In this document: in pieces, positions 13,767 to 18,903 of the stretch
Position numbering within the stretch: the stretch's first letter is position 1
Layout: each line of letters opens with the position of its first letter
Origin: Actinomycetota bacterium
GTDB taxonomy: Bacteria; Actinomycetota; Actinomycetes; Actinomycetales; Microbacteriaceae
Assembly (NCBI GenBank): GCA_009703545.1
Contig: WLFX01000004.1
Coordinates: 1 to 21,523, forward strand
Direction: 5' to 3'
Length of the DNA: 21,523 nucleotides
Notes under the pieces: generated by a model
Told to the model about the DNA's origin: nothing
The model's input: only the letters and a program-made list of their open reading frames with translations
Database searches by the model: none
Position numbers and translations under genes: made by a program

Positions 13767-16493
13767 CTAGGCGTCCCCACCGGTGTTTCCGGTGGTTCCC
13801 GCGGTGACGTCGTCGAGACGGTAACGCTCGAAGGCGTCGATCACAACCGCTCGGTCCACCTCTCCGCGCTGGGCGAGTTGTTGCAAGACGCGAACGACGA
13901 TCGACTGAGTGTCAATTGCGAAGTGACGTCGAGCTGCGGCGCGCGTGTCCGAGAATCCGAAGCCATCACCACCAAGCGTCGCAAAATCAGTCGGTACATA
14001 TGGTCGAATTTGATCGGCTACGGCGTGCATGAAGTCACTCACGGCAATGACTGGTCCGCGTTCATTGCGAAGTTTCTCGGTCACGTACGGAACGCGGGGG
14101 AGTTCCTTCGGGTGTAAGAAGTTGAAACGGTCAGAATCACGACCGTCACGTCGAAGTTCATTCCACGACGTCACTGACCACACGTCAGCTGCGACATTCC
14201 AATCGCTGGCAAGAATCTTTTGAGCCTCGAGCGCCCATGGAACAGAAACGCCACTGGCCAGAATTTGTGCCGGAATCGTACCCTTCGCCGCTGCGCGATA
14301 TTTGTACATGCCGCGCACGAGACCGTCGATATCGATACCGGACGGTTCTGCCGGCTGGAGCATTGGCTCGTTATACACCGTGAGGTAGTAGTACACGTTG
14401 GGGTCTGAGTGGGTGCCGCCGTACATGCGGTCAAGACCGGCCTTGACGATGTGCCCAATCTCGAAAGCGAATGCTGGGTCATAGGCAATGACGGCATCAT
14501 TCGCCGAGGCAATGAGGTGTGAATGTCCATCGGCATGTTGTAAGCCCTCACCCGCAAGTGTGGTTTTGCCGGCGGTCGCCCCGATGATGAAGCCGCGGGC
14601 CATTTGGTCTCCGGCGAGCCACATCTGGTCGCCGGTTCGTTGGAAACCAAACATCGAATAGAGCACATATACGGGAATCATGACTTCGCCCTGTGTCGCA
14701 TACGATGTTCCGGCCGCAACGAATGCGGCCATCGCCCCGGCCTCATTGATTCCGGTGTGGAGAATTTGACCTTCGACACTTTCCTTATAGGCAAGCAACA
14801 GGTCGCGGTCCACCGAGACATAATTCTGTCCGAACGGGTTATAAATCTTTGCGGTGGGGAAATACGAGTCCATTCCAAAGGTGCGTGCTTCGTCAGGGAT
14901 GATCGGCACGAAGCGCTTACCCATGCTCTCGTCGCGAAGAAGGTCTTTCAACAGGCGAGCAAACGCCATCGTCGTCGCAACTTCCTGCTTGCCGCTGCCC
15001 TTCTTAGTCAACTCGTAAAGTTTTGGATTCGGAAGGGCAATCGGTGCGGGCTCATGTCGCCGCTGCGGCAACGCTCCACCTAGCTCACGTCGCTTGTTGA
15101 GCAAATACTGGATGGCTGGGTCATCGGGACCGGGGTGATAGTAGGGTGGTCGGTAGGGGTCCGCTTTCAATTGCGCGTCCGAAATCGGAATGCGCAAGTC
15201 ATCACGGAACGACTTCAGCACATCGAGGGACAACTTCTTCATCTGGTGAACGGCGTTACGACCCTCAAACGACTTTCCTAGGCCGTAACCCTTCACCGTT
15301 TTCGCGAGAATCACGGTCGGCTTGCCCTTGTGGGACAAGGCTTCTGCGTAAGCCGCATAGAGCTTTCGATAGTCGTGTCCACCGCGCTTGAGGGACCAAA
15401 TCTGGTCGTCCGTCCAATCGGCAACCATTGCTGCTGTTCGGGGATCGCGCCCGAAGAAATTCTCGCGGATATAGGCGCCCGATTCGGCTTTGTACGTTTG
15501 GAAATCGCCGTCCGGAGTGGCGTTCATGAGGTCGCGAAGGGCGCCATCGGTGTCGTTGAGAATGAGCGAATCCCACTCGCGTCCCCACACAACCTTGATG
15601 ACATTCCACCCTGCGCCGCGGAAGAACGACTCCAGTTCTTGGATGATTTTTCCATTACCTCGGACGGGGCCGTCGAGTCTCTGAAGATTGCAGTTCACCA
15701 CGAACGTGAGATTGTCGAGGCCGTCATTCGCCGCGAGTTGAAGTGCGCCACGAGATTCAACCTCGTCCATTTCGCCATCACCGAGGAATGCCCACACGTG
15801 CTGATCGGAGCAGTCCTTGATTCCGCGGTTTGTCATGTACTTGTTGAATTGGGCCTGATAGATCGCGTTGATTGGACCGAGGCCCATTGATACCGTCGGG
15901 AACTGCCAGAAATTAGGCATCAGTCGAGGGTGCGGGTACGACGACAAACCACCGGCAAAATGCGACTTTTCCTGACGGAAGCCATCCAGCTGGTCTTCCG
16001 ACAAGCGACCTTCGAGGAAGGCGCGTGCGTACATCCCTGGAGCGGCGTGCCCCTGATAGAAAATTTGGTCACCTCCACCGGGGTGATCTGGTCCGCGGAA
16101 GAAATGATTGTGACCGACTTCGTAAAGCGACGCGCTCGAGGCATACGAACCAATGTGACCACCAACTCCGATACCGGGACGCTGGGCTCTGTGCACCATG
16201 ATTGCGGAGTTCCATCGGATCCACGCTCGGTACTGGCGCTCAATGTCCTCATCGCCCGGAAACGCAACTTCATTCTCGGGAGCAATCGTATTCAGGTAAT
16301 CCGTGGTCGGCACCATGGGAACGCCAAGGTGCAATTCTTTAGAACGCTTCAAGAGTGCGAGCATCAACTCGCGACCGCGTTCGTGACCCTGCGCCGAAAC
16401 GACGTCCGTAAGGGACTCTTGCCATTCGACCGTCTCGTCTGGATTGCTGTCCAACGTTGACGACGAATACGGGTCTTGGTCGTTCACGCTCAT
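13767..16493 (-). CDS. aceE: pyruvate dehydrogenase E1, homodimeric type
   Basis: Thiamine-diphosphate enzyme that decarboxylates pyruvate and acetylates the lipoyl group of E2, feeding acetyl-CoA to the TCA cycle and lipid synthesis. At 908 aa it is the single-chain type of proteobacteria and actinobacteria. The ThDP/Mg motif runs from GDGEMDE (238-244) to VVNCNLQ (265-271). Other family blocks are [20 protein letters not shown] (112-131), [36 protein letters not shown] and [24 protein letters not shown]. The ATG of MSVNDQ is chosen because GGAAG lies 8 nt upstream; a TTG five codons earlier is less likely. In actinobacteria such as Corynebacterium, AceE works in a joint pyruvate/oxoglutarate dehydrogenase complex. 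No E2 or E3 gene is in the window. Confidence 0.97.
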
Positions 16494-16559
16494 AAATAGA
16501 TCTTCCAATCAAAGGTGGCGAGGAAGTGGCGCTGTCAGGGTTGCGACGACGTCCACCCA

Positions 16560-16588
16560 ATCCTAGACCGCTGTGCGCCACTCGTCGA
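16560..16588 (-). promoter_or_regulatory. candidate aceE promoter
   Basis: On the minus strand TCGACG (16588-16583) and TAGGAT (16565-16560) are spaced by exactly 17 bp. Transcription would start near 16552, leaving a leader of about 60 nt with GGAAG before the ATG. The site lies back to back with the tRNA-Val promoter. Confidence 0.5.
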
Positions 16589-16596
16589 TGTTCCCC

Positions 16597-16602
16597 TATG
16601 AT
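16597..16602 (+). promoter_or_regulatory. candidate -10 of the tRNA-Val promoter
   Basis: TATGAT, a five-of-six match to the -10 consensus, lies 10 bp before the mature tRNA 5' end. No convincing -35 is seen at 17 bp spacing. Confidence 0.5.
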
Positions 16603-16612
16603 TAAACGGTCA

Positions 16613-16686
16613 GGGCCTGTAGCTCAGTTGGTTAGAGCGCCACGCTTACACCGTGGATGTCGGGAGTTCGAGTCTCTCCGGGCTCA
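16613..16686 (+). tRNA. tRNA-Val (anticodon UAC)
   Basis: A 74-nt cloverleaf: acceptor GGGCCTG with CGGGCTC (two G-U pairs), D-stem GCTC, anticodon arm CCACG-CTTACAC-CGTGG with anticodon TAC reading GUA/GUG codons, and T-arm GGGAG-TTCGAGT-CTCTC, with discriminator A. CCA is not encoded (CTC follows). Its last 11 bases are also the first 11 bases of the 88-bp repeat that continues downstream. Confidence 0.95.
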
Positions 16687-16763
16687 CTCACCTTTTTCTT
16701 CGAAATCGCCTGCAGAGCGAGACAATATCTCGCGAACGTCCGCAGGACCTTCGCGGGGCTCAC
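16676..16763 (+). repeat. 88-bp direct repeat, copy 1 (starts inside tRNA-Val)
   Basis: The repeat begins with the last 11 bases of tRNA-Val (16676-16686) and ends at the second GGGCTCAC (16756-16763). It matches copy 2 in 87 of 88 positions, the difference being G at 16753. Inside are TTTTTCTT (16693-16700) and a nested stem-loop: outer CCTGC/GCAGG (16709-16713 with 16742-16746) and inner GCGAGA/TCTCGC (16717-16722 with 16728-16733). No credible protein is encoded. Confidence 0.95.
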
Positions 16764-16800
16764 TCCTAAGATTTTTCTTTTGGGTGCACTGTCTATCAGA

Positions 16801-16825
16801 CGGAAGAATCCACTGGATTCTTCCG
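16801..16825. other. 11-bp perfect hairpin between the two repeats
   Basis: CGGAAGAATCC and GGATTCTTCCG form an 11-bp perfect stem with loop ACT. It ends at the base immediately before repeat copy 2. The nearest T-run on the plus strand (16843-16847) is 17 bp further on, so it is not a standard terminator, though it may stop or process the tRNA transcript. The rest of the 62-bp spacer (16764-16825) has a TTTTTCTT at 16772-16779 and no gene. Confidence 0.8.
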
Positions 16826-16913
16826 CTCCGGGCTCACTCACCTTTTTCTTCGAAATCGCCTGCAGAGCGAGACAATATCTCGCGAACGTCCGCAGGACCT
16901 TCACGGGGCTCAC
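16826..16913 (+). repeat. 88-bp direct repeat, copy 2 (carries tRNA-Val 3' end)
   Basis: Second copy at an offset of exactly 150 bp, with one substitution (A at 16903). It reproduces the tRNA 3'-terminal CTCCGGGCTCA (16826-16836), the T-run and the nested stem-loop. The final GGGCTCAC is at 16906-16913. The remaining bases up to the regulator stop at 16990 show nothing recognisable. Confidence 0.95.
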
Positions 16914-16989
16914 ATGAGTTCATCTGTCAAAATTTCTGATCGAAAATGCATCGCCGTCCACAAACGCACGTCGATGTGTCCGGTCTATT

Positions 16990-18903
16990 TTAAACATCGA
17001 TGACGTGCACGAGGGTGTCGATGAACCCTTCAAAGGTGGTCGAATTCTTGATGACGTCGGCCATGCGAGCTCGATCCGAAAACACGTCGACGAACTGTTC
17101 AAACACCTCTTGGAATTCTTCGCGCCCGCTCGCTGCGAAGGCGATAAACGCGACAACGTTGACTCGCTGGTCGCCCCACGGTGTCGCTACCTCATTGACC
17201 GCGAGGGCAATCGTCGGTCGTTGAGCGGTCATCGACATCGCGTGCGGGACCGCGAGCCCTTCGACAAACACGGTCGACGACATTTGCTCGCGCTCGATTG
17301 CGCTCTCAACATAGCCGTCGTCGATAATTCCGTGCGATTTCAGTGCTTCGCCAAGCGTGCGGATTGCCGACTCTGGTCCGTCAAACGTGACGTTTCGAAA
17401 GAACATGTCCGCGCGGAAGTATTTGAGTAATTGCTCACGAATGAGGTTTCGACGACGGCCTCGGCGTGCCCGAGACGTTACTCGACGAACCGCATCGATA
17501 TCGGACTCGGAGAGGAACGGTTGCACCTGCACGATTGTGTCGAGTTCAAAAGGGAGAGGTATCGTCGTGATGACAATGTCGGTCGTGATGTCACTCGCGC
17601 GAACATCCGTGCGTGTAATTACAGATTCGATGGTGATTTCTCCGCCAAGGATCTTCTCGATACTTTCCCTCATCACAATGTGCAGGTCGTAATACGAGGG
17701 GCTCACGATTGTTGCCGAAACCCGGTTCTTGGCCTGAGCTTGTCGTTCGAGGTGGCTTCCGATGTGCAGCGCGATATAGGAAATCTCATCTTCGTCAATC
17801 GTGATGTCGCGTTCCTTTTGAATAGTCGACGCGATGAACACGGCGATATCCCAGACAAGTGGGTACGACGACTTGATGGATTTTTGCAGCGGGTTTCGCG
17901 ACGGAGAATCGAATTTGGCGCGGGTCACGAGGTGCCCGATGTGTAACGCGAGCCGTCCGATGAGGTCACTATTGCGGAGGTCGATGAGGTACTCGTCATA
18001 AACCAGTTCAACCGCGCGAGTGGTTAGCGCAACATCTTCGCCATCTACTGTCGGCGTGCCGGCCGAACCGCCAGAACCGGGAGTGATGATTCTGGTCGCC
18101 AGCTGGCGAGCGAGGTACCATTCTTCGCGCGCGCCGAGGTCGATCGAGAAGTGACGTTTGGCCAACTCACGGACGATACCTGAAACGAAGGTGGTGTCAT
18201 CATCAAACTCAATCTCGATATCGGGCAGAGTCAAACCATTACGAACTCGATCGACCGCGATAGCGAGATGTAAGAGCACCGAATCGATTCCGTATTCGTT
18301 AATGAAGTAACGGTGATAGTCGAGTCGTTCAATCAGATCTGTTTTGAACTCGACGAGGGTCGGAATTTCGAATCGAAGAGCAATGGTGTCAAGGCTTAGC
18401 AAACCCGAATTCGTCTCGTCGTGAACAAGCGTCGATAGCAATCGACGAAGTTGTGACTCATCGCCCCGCAGGGTAAGAACATTGTCGACTCTGTCGATGG
18501 CAACTCCCGAATCCACTGCGTTCTGTCTGATGCGCTTGATATCCGATTCAATCGTCGCAGCCGAGACGTGCAGCGACAACGAGAGGTCGTCAATCGACAA
18601 ACCGGTGCTGGTCGACGCGAGTCGATGAACGATATGGTGCTCGCGTTCGCGGGGAGTGGATGGAAAAGATTCGGGCTTCGCATCGAGCTCTGAGCGGTAT
18701 GTGAAGTAGGCATCACGGTTGAGGCGGTAGCCGGTGCTCGTCGCGCTGATGATGTCGTAGGGATGGGCTGCGGACTTCGCCGCTGCAACATAGGAACGGA
18801 CGCTTCGAGTGGACACACCCATGTTCTCGGCCAGGAAGGACGCGGTGAGTGAGTCATCAGTCGACCGCAACAATTCCAAGAGAGCGAGATATTTGTCAGA
18901 CAT
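16990..18903 (-). CDS. BglG/MtlR-type PTS-controlled transcriptional regulator
   Basis: Multidomain regulator of 637 aa whose activity is set by phosphorylation from the PTS. Visible order: N-terminal HTH (about 5-60, AENMGVSTRSVRSYV); a second HTH (about 100-135, GLSIDDLSLSLHVSAATIESD); PRD1 (about 185-285, H212); PRD2 (about 295-390, H321/H324 and H380); a IIB-like domain (about 396-470); and a IIA domain of the mannitol/fructose type (about 495-637) with H554 in EGLAVPHAMS. The IIB-like segment reads ATIVSPSYYDLH with no Cys at the expected phosphorylation position, so this input may be lost. The DNA-binding HTH pair indicates an MtlR-like activator rather than an RNA antiterminator. Divergent orientation from the PTS operon supports control of it. 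Confidence 0.88.
   Translation of the reverse strand: MSDKYLALLELLRSTDDSLTASFLAENMGVSTRSVRSYVAAAKSAAHPYDIISATSTGYRLNRDAYFTYRSELDAKPESFPSTPREREHHIVHRLASTSTGLSIDDLSLSLHVSAATIESDIKRIRQNAVDSGVAIDRVDNVLTLRGDESQLRRLLSTLVHDETNSGLLSLDTIALRFEIPTLVEFKTDLIERLDYHRYFINEYGIDSVLLHLAIAVDRVRNGLTLPDIEIEFDDDTTFVSGIVRELAKRHFSIDLGAREEWYLARQLATRIITPGSGGSAGTPTVDGEDVALTTRAVELVYDEYLIDLRNSDLIGRLALHIGHLVTRAKFDSPSRNPLQKSIKSSYPLVWDIAVFIASTIQKERDITIDEDEISYIALHIGSHLERQAQAKNRVSATIVSPSYYDLHIVMRESIEKILGGEITIESVITRTDVRASDITTDIVITTIPLPFELDTIVQVQPFLSESDIDAVRRVTSRARRGRRRNLIREQLLKYFRADMFFRNVTFDGPESAIRTLGEALKSHGIIDDGYVESAIEREQMSSTVFVEGLAVPHAMSMTAQRPTIALAVNEVATPWGDQRVNVVAFIAFAASGREEFQEVFEQFVDVFSDRARMADVIKNSTTFEGFIDTLVHVIDV

Follow-up and report, generated by a model that had tools for sequence, protein, structure and literature searches.

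Hairpin units ending in copies of the host gene's 3' end, behind tRNA-Val and other genes of Microbacteriaceae: a candidate family of tiny mobile elements

The window analyzed here, a stretch of 21,523 nt, is a contig of the 1.0 Mb, 65% complete genome G000 of an uncultured actinobacterium of the family Microbacteriaceae. It carries a tRNA-Val(TAC) gene between a divergent aceE gene and a convergent gene for a regulator with PRD and PTS-EIIA domains, which we take to be of the MtlR/BglG type (Table 1). An earlier note, drawn from the letters of this DNA, had described a tandem array of tRNA-sized units behind this tRNA, each ending in the tRNA 3' end, and ARAGORN, Rfam and motif counts bear this out: the copied sequence is the 3' end of tRNA-Val(TAC) itself, CTCCGGGCTCA(C), and in unit 1 the copy begins at the base right after the hairpin. 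The motif GGGCTCAC starts at 16680, 16756, 16830 and 16906, with the claimed spacing of 76, 74 and 76; together with a fifth, unrelated copy at 17699 this makes five occurrences in the window against 0.67 expected, and none of 100 shuffles reaches five. Units 1 and 3, likewise rightly called near-identical, form an 88-bp direct repeat at 99% identity, giving the array the pattern B-A-B. The tail copy of unit 2, the 12-nt CTCCGGGCTCAC, is longer than the motif of the note. A further element pointed out there, TTTTTCTT, does lie 13, 16 and 13 bp past the motif start in the three units, but it is not conserved: the homologous type A unit of G006, G007 and G013 lacks it.

Table 1. Coordinates of the genes, units, hairpins and tail copies in the window
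Feature	Positions	Strand	Basis
Flanking gene, pyruvate dehydrogenase E1 (aceE), divergent, left border	13767..16508	-	Pfam PF17831
tRNA-Val(TAC) gene	16613..16687	+	ARAGORN; Rfam RF00005, 67.3 bits
Unit 1, type B, 76 bp, final bases GGGCTCAC	16688..16763	+	
Hairpin of unit 1, 25 nt, loop GCA, one C:C mismatch in the stem	16731..16755	+	
Copy 1 of the tRNA-Val 3' end, 8 nt	16756..16763	+	
Unit 2, type A, 74 bp, final bases CTCCGGGCTCAC	16764..16837	+	
Type A box CTGTCTATCAGAC in unit 2	16789..16801	+	Pattern search
Hairpin of unit 2, 25 nt, 11-bp stem, loop ACT	16801..16825	+	
Copy 2 of the tRNA-Val 3' end, 12 nt	16826..16837	+	
Unit 3, type B, 76 bp, nearly the same as unit 1	16838..16913	+	99% over 88 bp
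Hairpin of unit 3, 25 nt, one further mismatch near the foot	16881..16905	+	
Copy 3 of the tRNA-Val 3' end, 8 nt	16906..16913	+	
Flanking gene, PRD / PTS-EIIA regulator, convergent, right border	16990..18903	-	Pfam PF00874, PF00359, PF08279

One reading of such an array, which we hold to be unlikely, is that of a conserved RNA or terminator module: a hairpin in the tRNA trailer with a role in termination, 3' processing or an rtT-like RNA, which would be inherited vertically and have its copies maintained via gene conversion. The same layout at E. coli tyrT/tyrV speaks for it. Against it, no intrinsic terminator (a GC-rich hairpin followed directly by a T-run) was found within 16480-17010. In the Rfam search of the window only the tRNA exceeds the threshold, the single match on the array region is antisense and far under its gathering score, and at four loci of relatives nothing but tRNA lies over the gathering score. 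A tRNA-like fold of a unit was also considered and rejected, as the acceptor pairing is not consistent.

The same locus was compared across 15 genomes of the genus, most of them fragmented MAGs and five at least 90% complete. Fourteen have tRNA-Val(TAC), and copy number behind it varies: one to three units are present in eight genomes and none in six (G002, G003, G008, G010, G011 and G014), a patchiness that tells against a conserved RNA module. Besides the B-A-B array of G000 there are A-B in G006, A-A in G005, one type B unit in G009 and a single type A unit in each of G001, G007, G012 and G013. Two observations do favor such a module, namely that the Val(TAC) units with an exact copy keep to 73-77 bp and that sister species share units (67/74 positions identical between G000 and G012, 66/73 between G001 and G005); on the other hand, in G012 and G013 the tail copy of unit A has decayed while the hairpin was kept. 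On the tree of aceE plus regulator, in which G004 is absent, unit presence requires at least five changes. Moreover, unit A of G006 and that of G013 are identical at 69/74 positions, including 24/25 in the 5' part, while their flanking genes show 46.1% third-codon-position identity, and the closer relatives of G013 (G000, G007 and G012) have only 8-10 of those 25 positions in common with it. Thus, as judged from these alignments, unit similarity is at odds with the species tree at tRNA-Val(TAC), and the same probably holds at tRNA-Arg(CCT). This conflict, along with the differences among species in the presence, number and kind of units, lends weight to the earlier suggestion of a recombination or insertion hotspot.

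The exact box pattern CTGTCTATCAGAC occurs in seven of 40 genomes, six of the genus and one of another family, and in the 15 genus genomes it is restricted to the tRNA-Val locus; the idea of a dispersed element marked by the box CTGTCTATMAGAC was accordingly dropped, the exact box not being dispersed. Similarly, TCCGGGCTCAC is found at 35 places elsewhere in the genus, and only at tRNA-Val is such a hairpin found upstream of it (G005:C58 left out).

Within the genus, units stand behind six tRNA genes: Val(TAC), Val(CAC), Val(GAC), Arg(CCT), Ala(GGC) and Ala(CGC). The 3'-flank scan behind this list covered 180 tRNA entries, comprising most tRNA-model listings of G000, G001, G007 and G009 and other fetched loci, and may count a few tRNAs twice where loci were cut; 175 of the 180 were screened for hairpins. 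Four tRNA-Pro rows, one tRNA-Leu row and a second tRNA-Val row of G009 beside N runs were set aside; the same was done with a match of 8 nt lying 197 bp downstream of Val(GAC) in G005. In G007 and G009 the Val(CAC) unit sits between tRNA-Val and a tRNA-Gly on the same strand, where a terminator would hardly be expected. In G010, Val(CAC) is followed by a 17-bp hairpin that lacks a copy and looks like an ordinary terminator.

A covariance model of the upstream stretch and hairpin, from which the tail copy was excluded, was searched at E <= 0.01 in 398 genomes of the family, 10 of them of the genus. It matched 20 of the 398, including eight of the 10. One of the 31 genus matches is the reverse of another, and the remaining 30 of 30 are all located downstream of a tRNA, including some within stretches of G009 duplicated beside N runs. 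Six matches fall at five loci that were absent from model building: Arg(CCT) in G004, G005, G006 and G014, the last with two tandem units, and Ala(CGC) in G005. Twelve genomes outside the genus were matched, of which five have the full plan, belonging to two other genera: a unit behind Val(GAC) in G207, three tandem units behind Ser(GGA) in G389, units behind both Gly(CCC) and the protein-coding gene ftsY in G298, two ftsY units in G334 and one ftsY locus in G155. The identity of ftsY was read by eye from the translated C-terminus in G334 and G155 (GGFILAVQERTGIPIKLIGQGEGIDDLTGF...VEQLVG*) and from the same tail sequence in G298. In the other seven (G082, G159, G194, G212, G219, G233 and G255) no tRNA lies directly upstream of the match, and these matches may be ordinary terminators. 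Thus, the units are not confined to one locus, and the recurrence of similar ones at other genes suggests, at the level of sequence, a family of tiny mobile elements; the presence of related hairpins at genes that are themselves unrelated is hard to reconcile with an RNA or terminator module.

Several other repeats lie behind genes in these genomes. Behind Val(GAC) of G010 (L251:1810-2060) are three 79-bp tandem units with other hairpins, two of which terminate in 27 nt copied from the tRNA end and the third in a shorter copy. At the tRNA-Pro genes (CGG and GGG; loci L082 in G000:C62, L298 and L295 in G009, and L292 in G007) a terminator-like hairpin and a 9-10 nt tail copy lie 131-159 bp downstream, a plan that differs from that of the 25-nt hairpin units, so these were not assigned to them. 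Two loci of G212, from another genus, have tandem repeats of about 60 bp with a GTCCACTGGAC palindrome, apparently behind a protein gene (L368, L376). Val(CAC) is inverted relative to the Gly-Cys-Val(GAC) cluster in G005 (L249), G010 (L251) and G006 (L252), with G001, G007, G009 and G012 as the reference for orientation. In G009, duplicated tRNA stretches adjoin runs of 100 Ns (L055, L237 and L323); these duplications beside the gaps are probably scaffolding artefacts. A scan of the 398 family genomes with the tRNA-Val end pattern gave 30 loci, of which the tRNA-bearing ones are the genus arrays, G299 and G318. In G318 the match lies 49 bp behind tRNA-Ser, and no copy of the tRNA-Ser tail was seen there.

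The unit plan is as follows: a 25-nt hairpin with an 11-bp stem and a 3-nt loop, followed from the hairpin foot by the 3'-end copy of the gene behind which the unit stands, with a unit size of 66-82 bp over many loci. We aligned 21 hairpins gap-free (alignment A3), leaving out the near-duplicate unit 3 of G000, second Val(TAC) unit of G005 and second Ala unit of G009. The layout consists of a C, ten stem bases, a triloop (ACT, ACC, ACA, GCA, GCC or AAC), the complement and a G, such that columns 14-38 are paired in 21/21 sequences and the next pair outward in 0/21, with a C-G closing pair and a final G in all 21. Of 220 stem cells 97.3% are paired, as opposed to 77.0% after shuffling. The stem sequence drifts with complementarity kept: double-sided changes affect 49 cells against 14.0 in shuffled alignments (0/500), though two of five covariation measures do not rise above the shuffles (45/500 and 433/500). 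Such compensatory change speaks for an RNA module. However, only 2/220 cells are G-U and 6/220 mispaired, and this near-absence of G-U points to a DNA palindrome more than to an RNA stem, the numbers being small. The processed small RNAs of about 75 nt envisaged in the earlier note are not supported, given the rarity of G-U and the Rfam result. Upstream of the hairpin there is a weak box, counted from the alignment as CTGTY in 9/21 and GAC at the hairpin edge in 14/21. The second Val(TAC) unit of G005 has a stem of about 15 bp, longer than the others, and no tail copy.

In most units the tail copy agrees with the gene behind which it stands. When the start of the copy was allowed to lie up to 2 nt from the hairpin foot, 12/12 positions agreed with the unit's own tRNA in 22 of 33 units, whereas 629 comparisons with other tRNAs gave 12/12 in two and 11/12 in nine; this scoring omits unit 3 of the window, which has an extra mismatch. 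An exact match of at least 8 nt to the tRNA end follows 23 of 34 hairpins, compared to 10 of 660 control points, and those ten are probably neighboring or duplicated tRNAs. A full tally of the 34, which adds to the 23 two Val(GAC) units and one copy at offset 2, comprises 26 exact copies, five with 1-4 mismatches (G012, G013, the first Ala unit of G009, the second Arg unit of G001 and the Arg unit of G005) and three without a clear copy (the second Val(TAC) unit of G005, its second Val(CAC) unit with 7 nt, and Ala(CGC) of G007 with 6 nt). The type B copies have only 8 nt in the tRNA and are not distinct in the 12-nt test.

The strongest single case is provided by the Arg(CCT) units of G006 and G007, whose aceE and regulator genes are 44.8% identical at third codon positions. 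Over the 36 nt that end at the hairpin foot these units differ at one position; however, the acceptor stems of the two tRNAs differ (GCCGCTG/AGCGGCA in G006 versus GCCTTTG/AAGGGCA in G007) and each tail copy is exact to its own tRNA (AGCG and AAGG, respectively). From the sequences, duplication of the target would fit this directly, vertical descent would need gene conversion, and an attachment core carried in from outside would misfit. G014, the clade-mate of G007, has a different Arg unit; a third Arg hairpin of G014, found with a loose pattern, was left out. In the opposite direction, the Arg copies of G001 (second unit) and G005 have the same 2/12 differences from the tRNA, as vertical descent predicts and against insertion.

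The match of the tail to the local tRNA variant, with the rest of the unit in common, also weighs on the possibility that the units are attachment-site scars, i.e. integrative elements that carried a copy of the gene 3' end and were reduced to their ends. Elements with tyrosine integrases typically insert into the 3' portion of a tRNA gene and bring along a copy of its tail, and the second unit of G005 is separated from the regulator gene by about 1 kb of additional DNA carrying small ORFs (L051:1815-2860), both of which would be in keeping with this origin. Nevertheless, we regard it as very improbable: units of 66-82 bp have one kind of hairpin at many loci, and each attachment core would need its own integrase. 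Most tyrosine recombinases found are of XerC/XerD length, a call made by length alone, and the five fetched integrase loci that are unlike XerC/XerD by length have no tRNA. No phage or plasmid match was obtained. Pattern searches of viral contigs gave five matches without a tRNA and 14 read as without an 11-bp stem, and one search gave none. Single copies of GGGCTCAC occur in two integrase loci (L185 and L187).

Orthologous loci with and without units were compared at two tRNA genes. At Val(TAC), comparison of the filled allele of G012 with the unfilled ones of G014 and G003 shows that the native flank resumes past the tail copy, and the unfilled alleles have no hairpin. At Val(CAC), the distal flank likewise resumes past the copy in the filled allele of G007 relative to the unfilled one of G012, although this pair is not clean, with about 35 nt right behind the tRNA of G012 matching neither flank well. 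The direct repeats that flank the clearest inserts measure 19 bp (Arg, G007), 24 bp (Val(CAC), G007), 24 bp (Arg, G001) and 29 bp (Ala(CGC), G005), and these four start in the T-arm region of the tRNA and run past its end. Tandem arrays aside, repeats span 8-25 nt at the other loci of the genus, which makes 8-29 nt for the genus as a whole; those at ftsY measure 10-18 nt, and that at Gly(CCC) of G298 reaches 56, a variability unlike that of a standard transposase. By contrast, the copied stretch begins, within the gene, 43-57 nt ahead of the hairpin in 15 of the 16 cases for which a repeat was found, the other being Gly of G298 at 98; the Ala unit of G009, which has a mismatch in its first copy and for which no repeat was found, is not among the 16. 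A long copied tail goes with a short lead and the reverse, and the unit size stays at about 75.

This constant spacing is not predicted by plain insertion; it would be by a duplication of fixed length or by an enzyme that measures distance. It speaks for a scheme in which slippage or repair duplicates the gene together with the hairpin in tandem, with one breakpoint at the foot of the hairpin and a second in the gene 3' end, some 50 nt ahead of the hairpin. The Val(TAC) array of G005, the Arg array of G014 and the Ser array of G389 do look like plain tandem copies, and in G001 the sequence past the last Val(TAC) copy resembles a unit lead. A plain case is seen behind tRNA-Lys(TTT) of G299 (L134), where the T-arm and 3' end are duplicated in tandem over 75 bp with no hairpin. 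We nonetheless consider tandem duplication quite unlikely as the general explanation, for the unfilled orthologues (Val(TAC) of G014 and G003, Val(CAC) of G012) lack a hairpin to start from, and in the Val(TAC) pair it is native flank that follows the tail copy. Furthermore, at single-unit loci such as Arg of G007 and ftsY of G155, what follows the copy soon departs from the unit lead, and the hairpin ends in G in 21/21 whatever base precedes the copied stretch, which argues against a common microhomology.

The unfilled alleles without a hairpin, the host-specific tails and the units common to distant species favor insertion with target duplication. Thus, we judge it just about probable, from sequence comparison, that each unit is a hairpin-ended, non-autonomous cassette, inserted at the 3' end of a gene with duplication of the target. 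The right end of the cassette would be the sharply bounded 25-nt palindrome, often with a weak box upstream. Insertion at the gene 3' end, that of tRNA genes in the genus, with target duplication would leave the gene intact and place its tail copy beyond the hairpin. Arrays such as B-A-B might then form by repeated insertion or by exchange between direct repeats, while recombination between the direct repeats would remove units. The cassette is presumed to move by means of a putative trans-acting enzyme that would recognize the hairpin, with the palindrome acting as DNA. In line with what is expected of a transposable element, the same element is found at non-homologous sites, namely behind the six tRNA genes listed for the genus and, in the two other genera, behind tRNA-Ser, tRNA-Gly and tRNA-Val genes and ftsY. 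Against the cassette, no circle, excision or fresh insertion event came to light, three of 34 hairpins lack a clear copy, and units are frequently shared by sister species. In its precise 3' end, its ragged 5' lead and the variability of its repeat, the cassette is reminiscent of target-primed insertion. A further-reaching proposal, tentative and rather doubtful, is that the units represent a bacterial mobile element of a new class. Such an element would be a cassette of under 60 bp with a 25-nt DNA hairpin of which the structure and not the sequence is kept; its insertion at gene 3' ends would duplicate a variable length of the target and leave the 3' end precise and the 5' lead ragged, with a SINE-like or target-primed resemblance.

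If mobile, the cassettes would be among the smallest mobile DNAs known to us, targeted to gene 3' ends in actinobacteria with small genomes; every event would preserve the gene and add a spare version of its tail, which would explain the origin and spread of copied tRNA tails as seen in rtT-like arrays, partial tRNAs and candidate integration hotspots. If they are instead a vertically inherited RNA module or the product of a recurrent duplication of fixed length, they would constitute a tRNA-trailer feature with an unusually free drift of the stem. With the list of loci and the covariance model, these readings can be put to the test.

A literature search at the level of titles found nothing on such hairpin units; several known systems nevertheless share parts of the plan. 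The repeats at E. coli tyrT give rise to rtT RNA, and the parallel drawn to them in the earlier note stands as regards the layout: as in rtT (rttR, tpr), tandem units follow a tRNA and each ends in a copy of its 3' end, with three units at tyrV, each with 19 nt of tRNA-Tyr, and a further copy between tyrT and tyrV. It does not extend to unit size, which is 178 bp in E. coli as against 66-82 bp here, or to the hairpin, as the 40 nt that precede the E. coli tail copies contain nothing comparable to the 11-bp hairpin; here, moreover, similar units recur at many genes. Phages, ICEs and tycheposons exploit the 3' ends of tRNAs and leave behind partial copies of them, but the present units are under 100 bp, have no gene or integrase, and have one kind of hairpin at many genes. 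REP-RAYT/BIME, RUP, RPE, Correia elements and MITEs are small non-coding palindromes presumably moved in trans. The units resemble REP/BIME and the miniature palindromic elements in being small non-coding palindromes. They differ from REP/BIME in that no Y1/RAYT transposase (PF01797) was found in the 15 genus genomes, five of them at least 90% complete, that no dispersed copies occur at the model threshold (30/30 genus matches being behind tRNAs), and that the stem sequence is not conserved and the target duplication is variable. Finally, the attC cassettes of integrons form serial arrays with a hairpin at the unit end whose structure is kept while its sequence varies. The units described here differ in that the tail copy belongs to the host gene and that the list of window ORFs has no integrase beside the array, but they parallel the attC arrays both in standing in series and in keeping hairpin structure over sequence.
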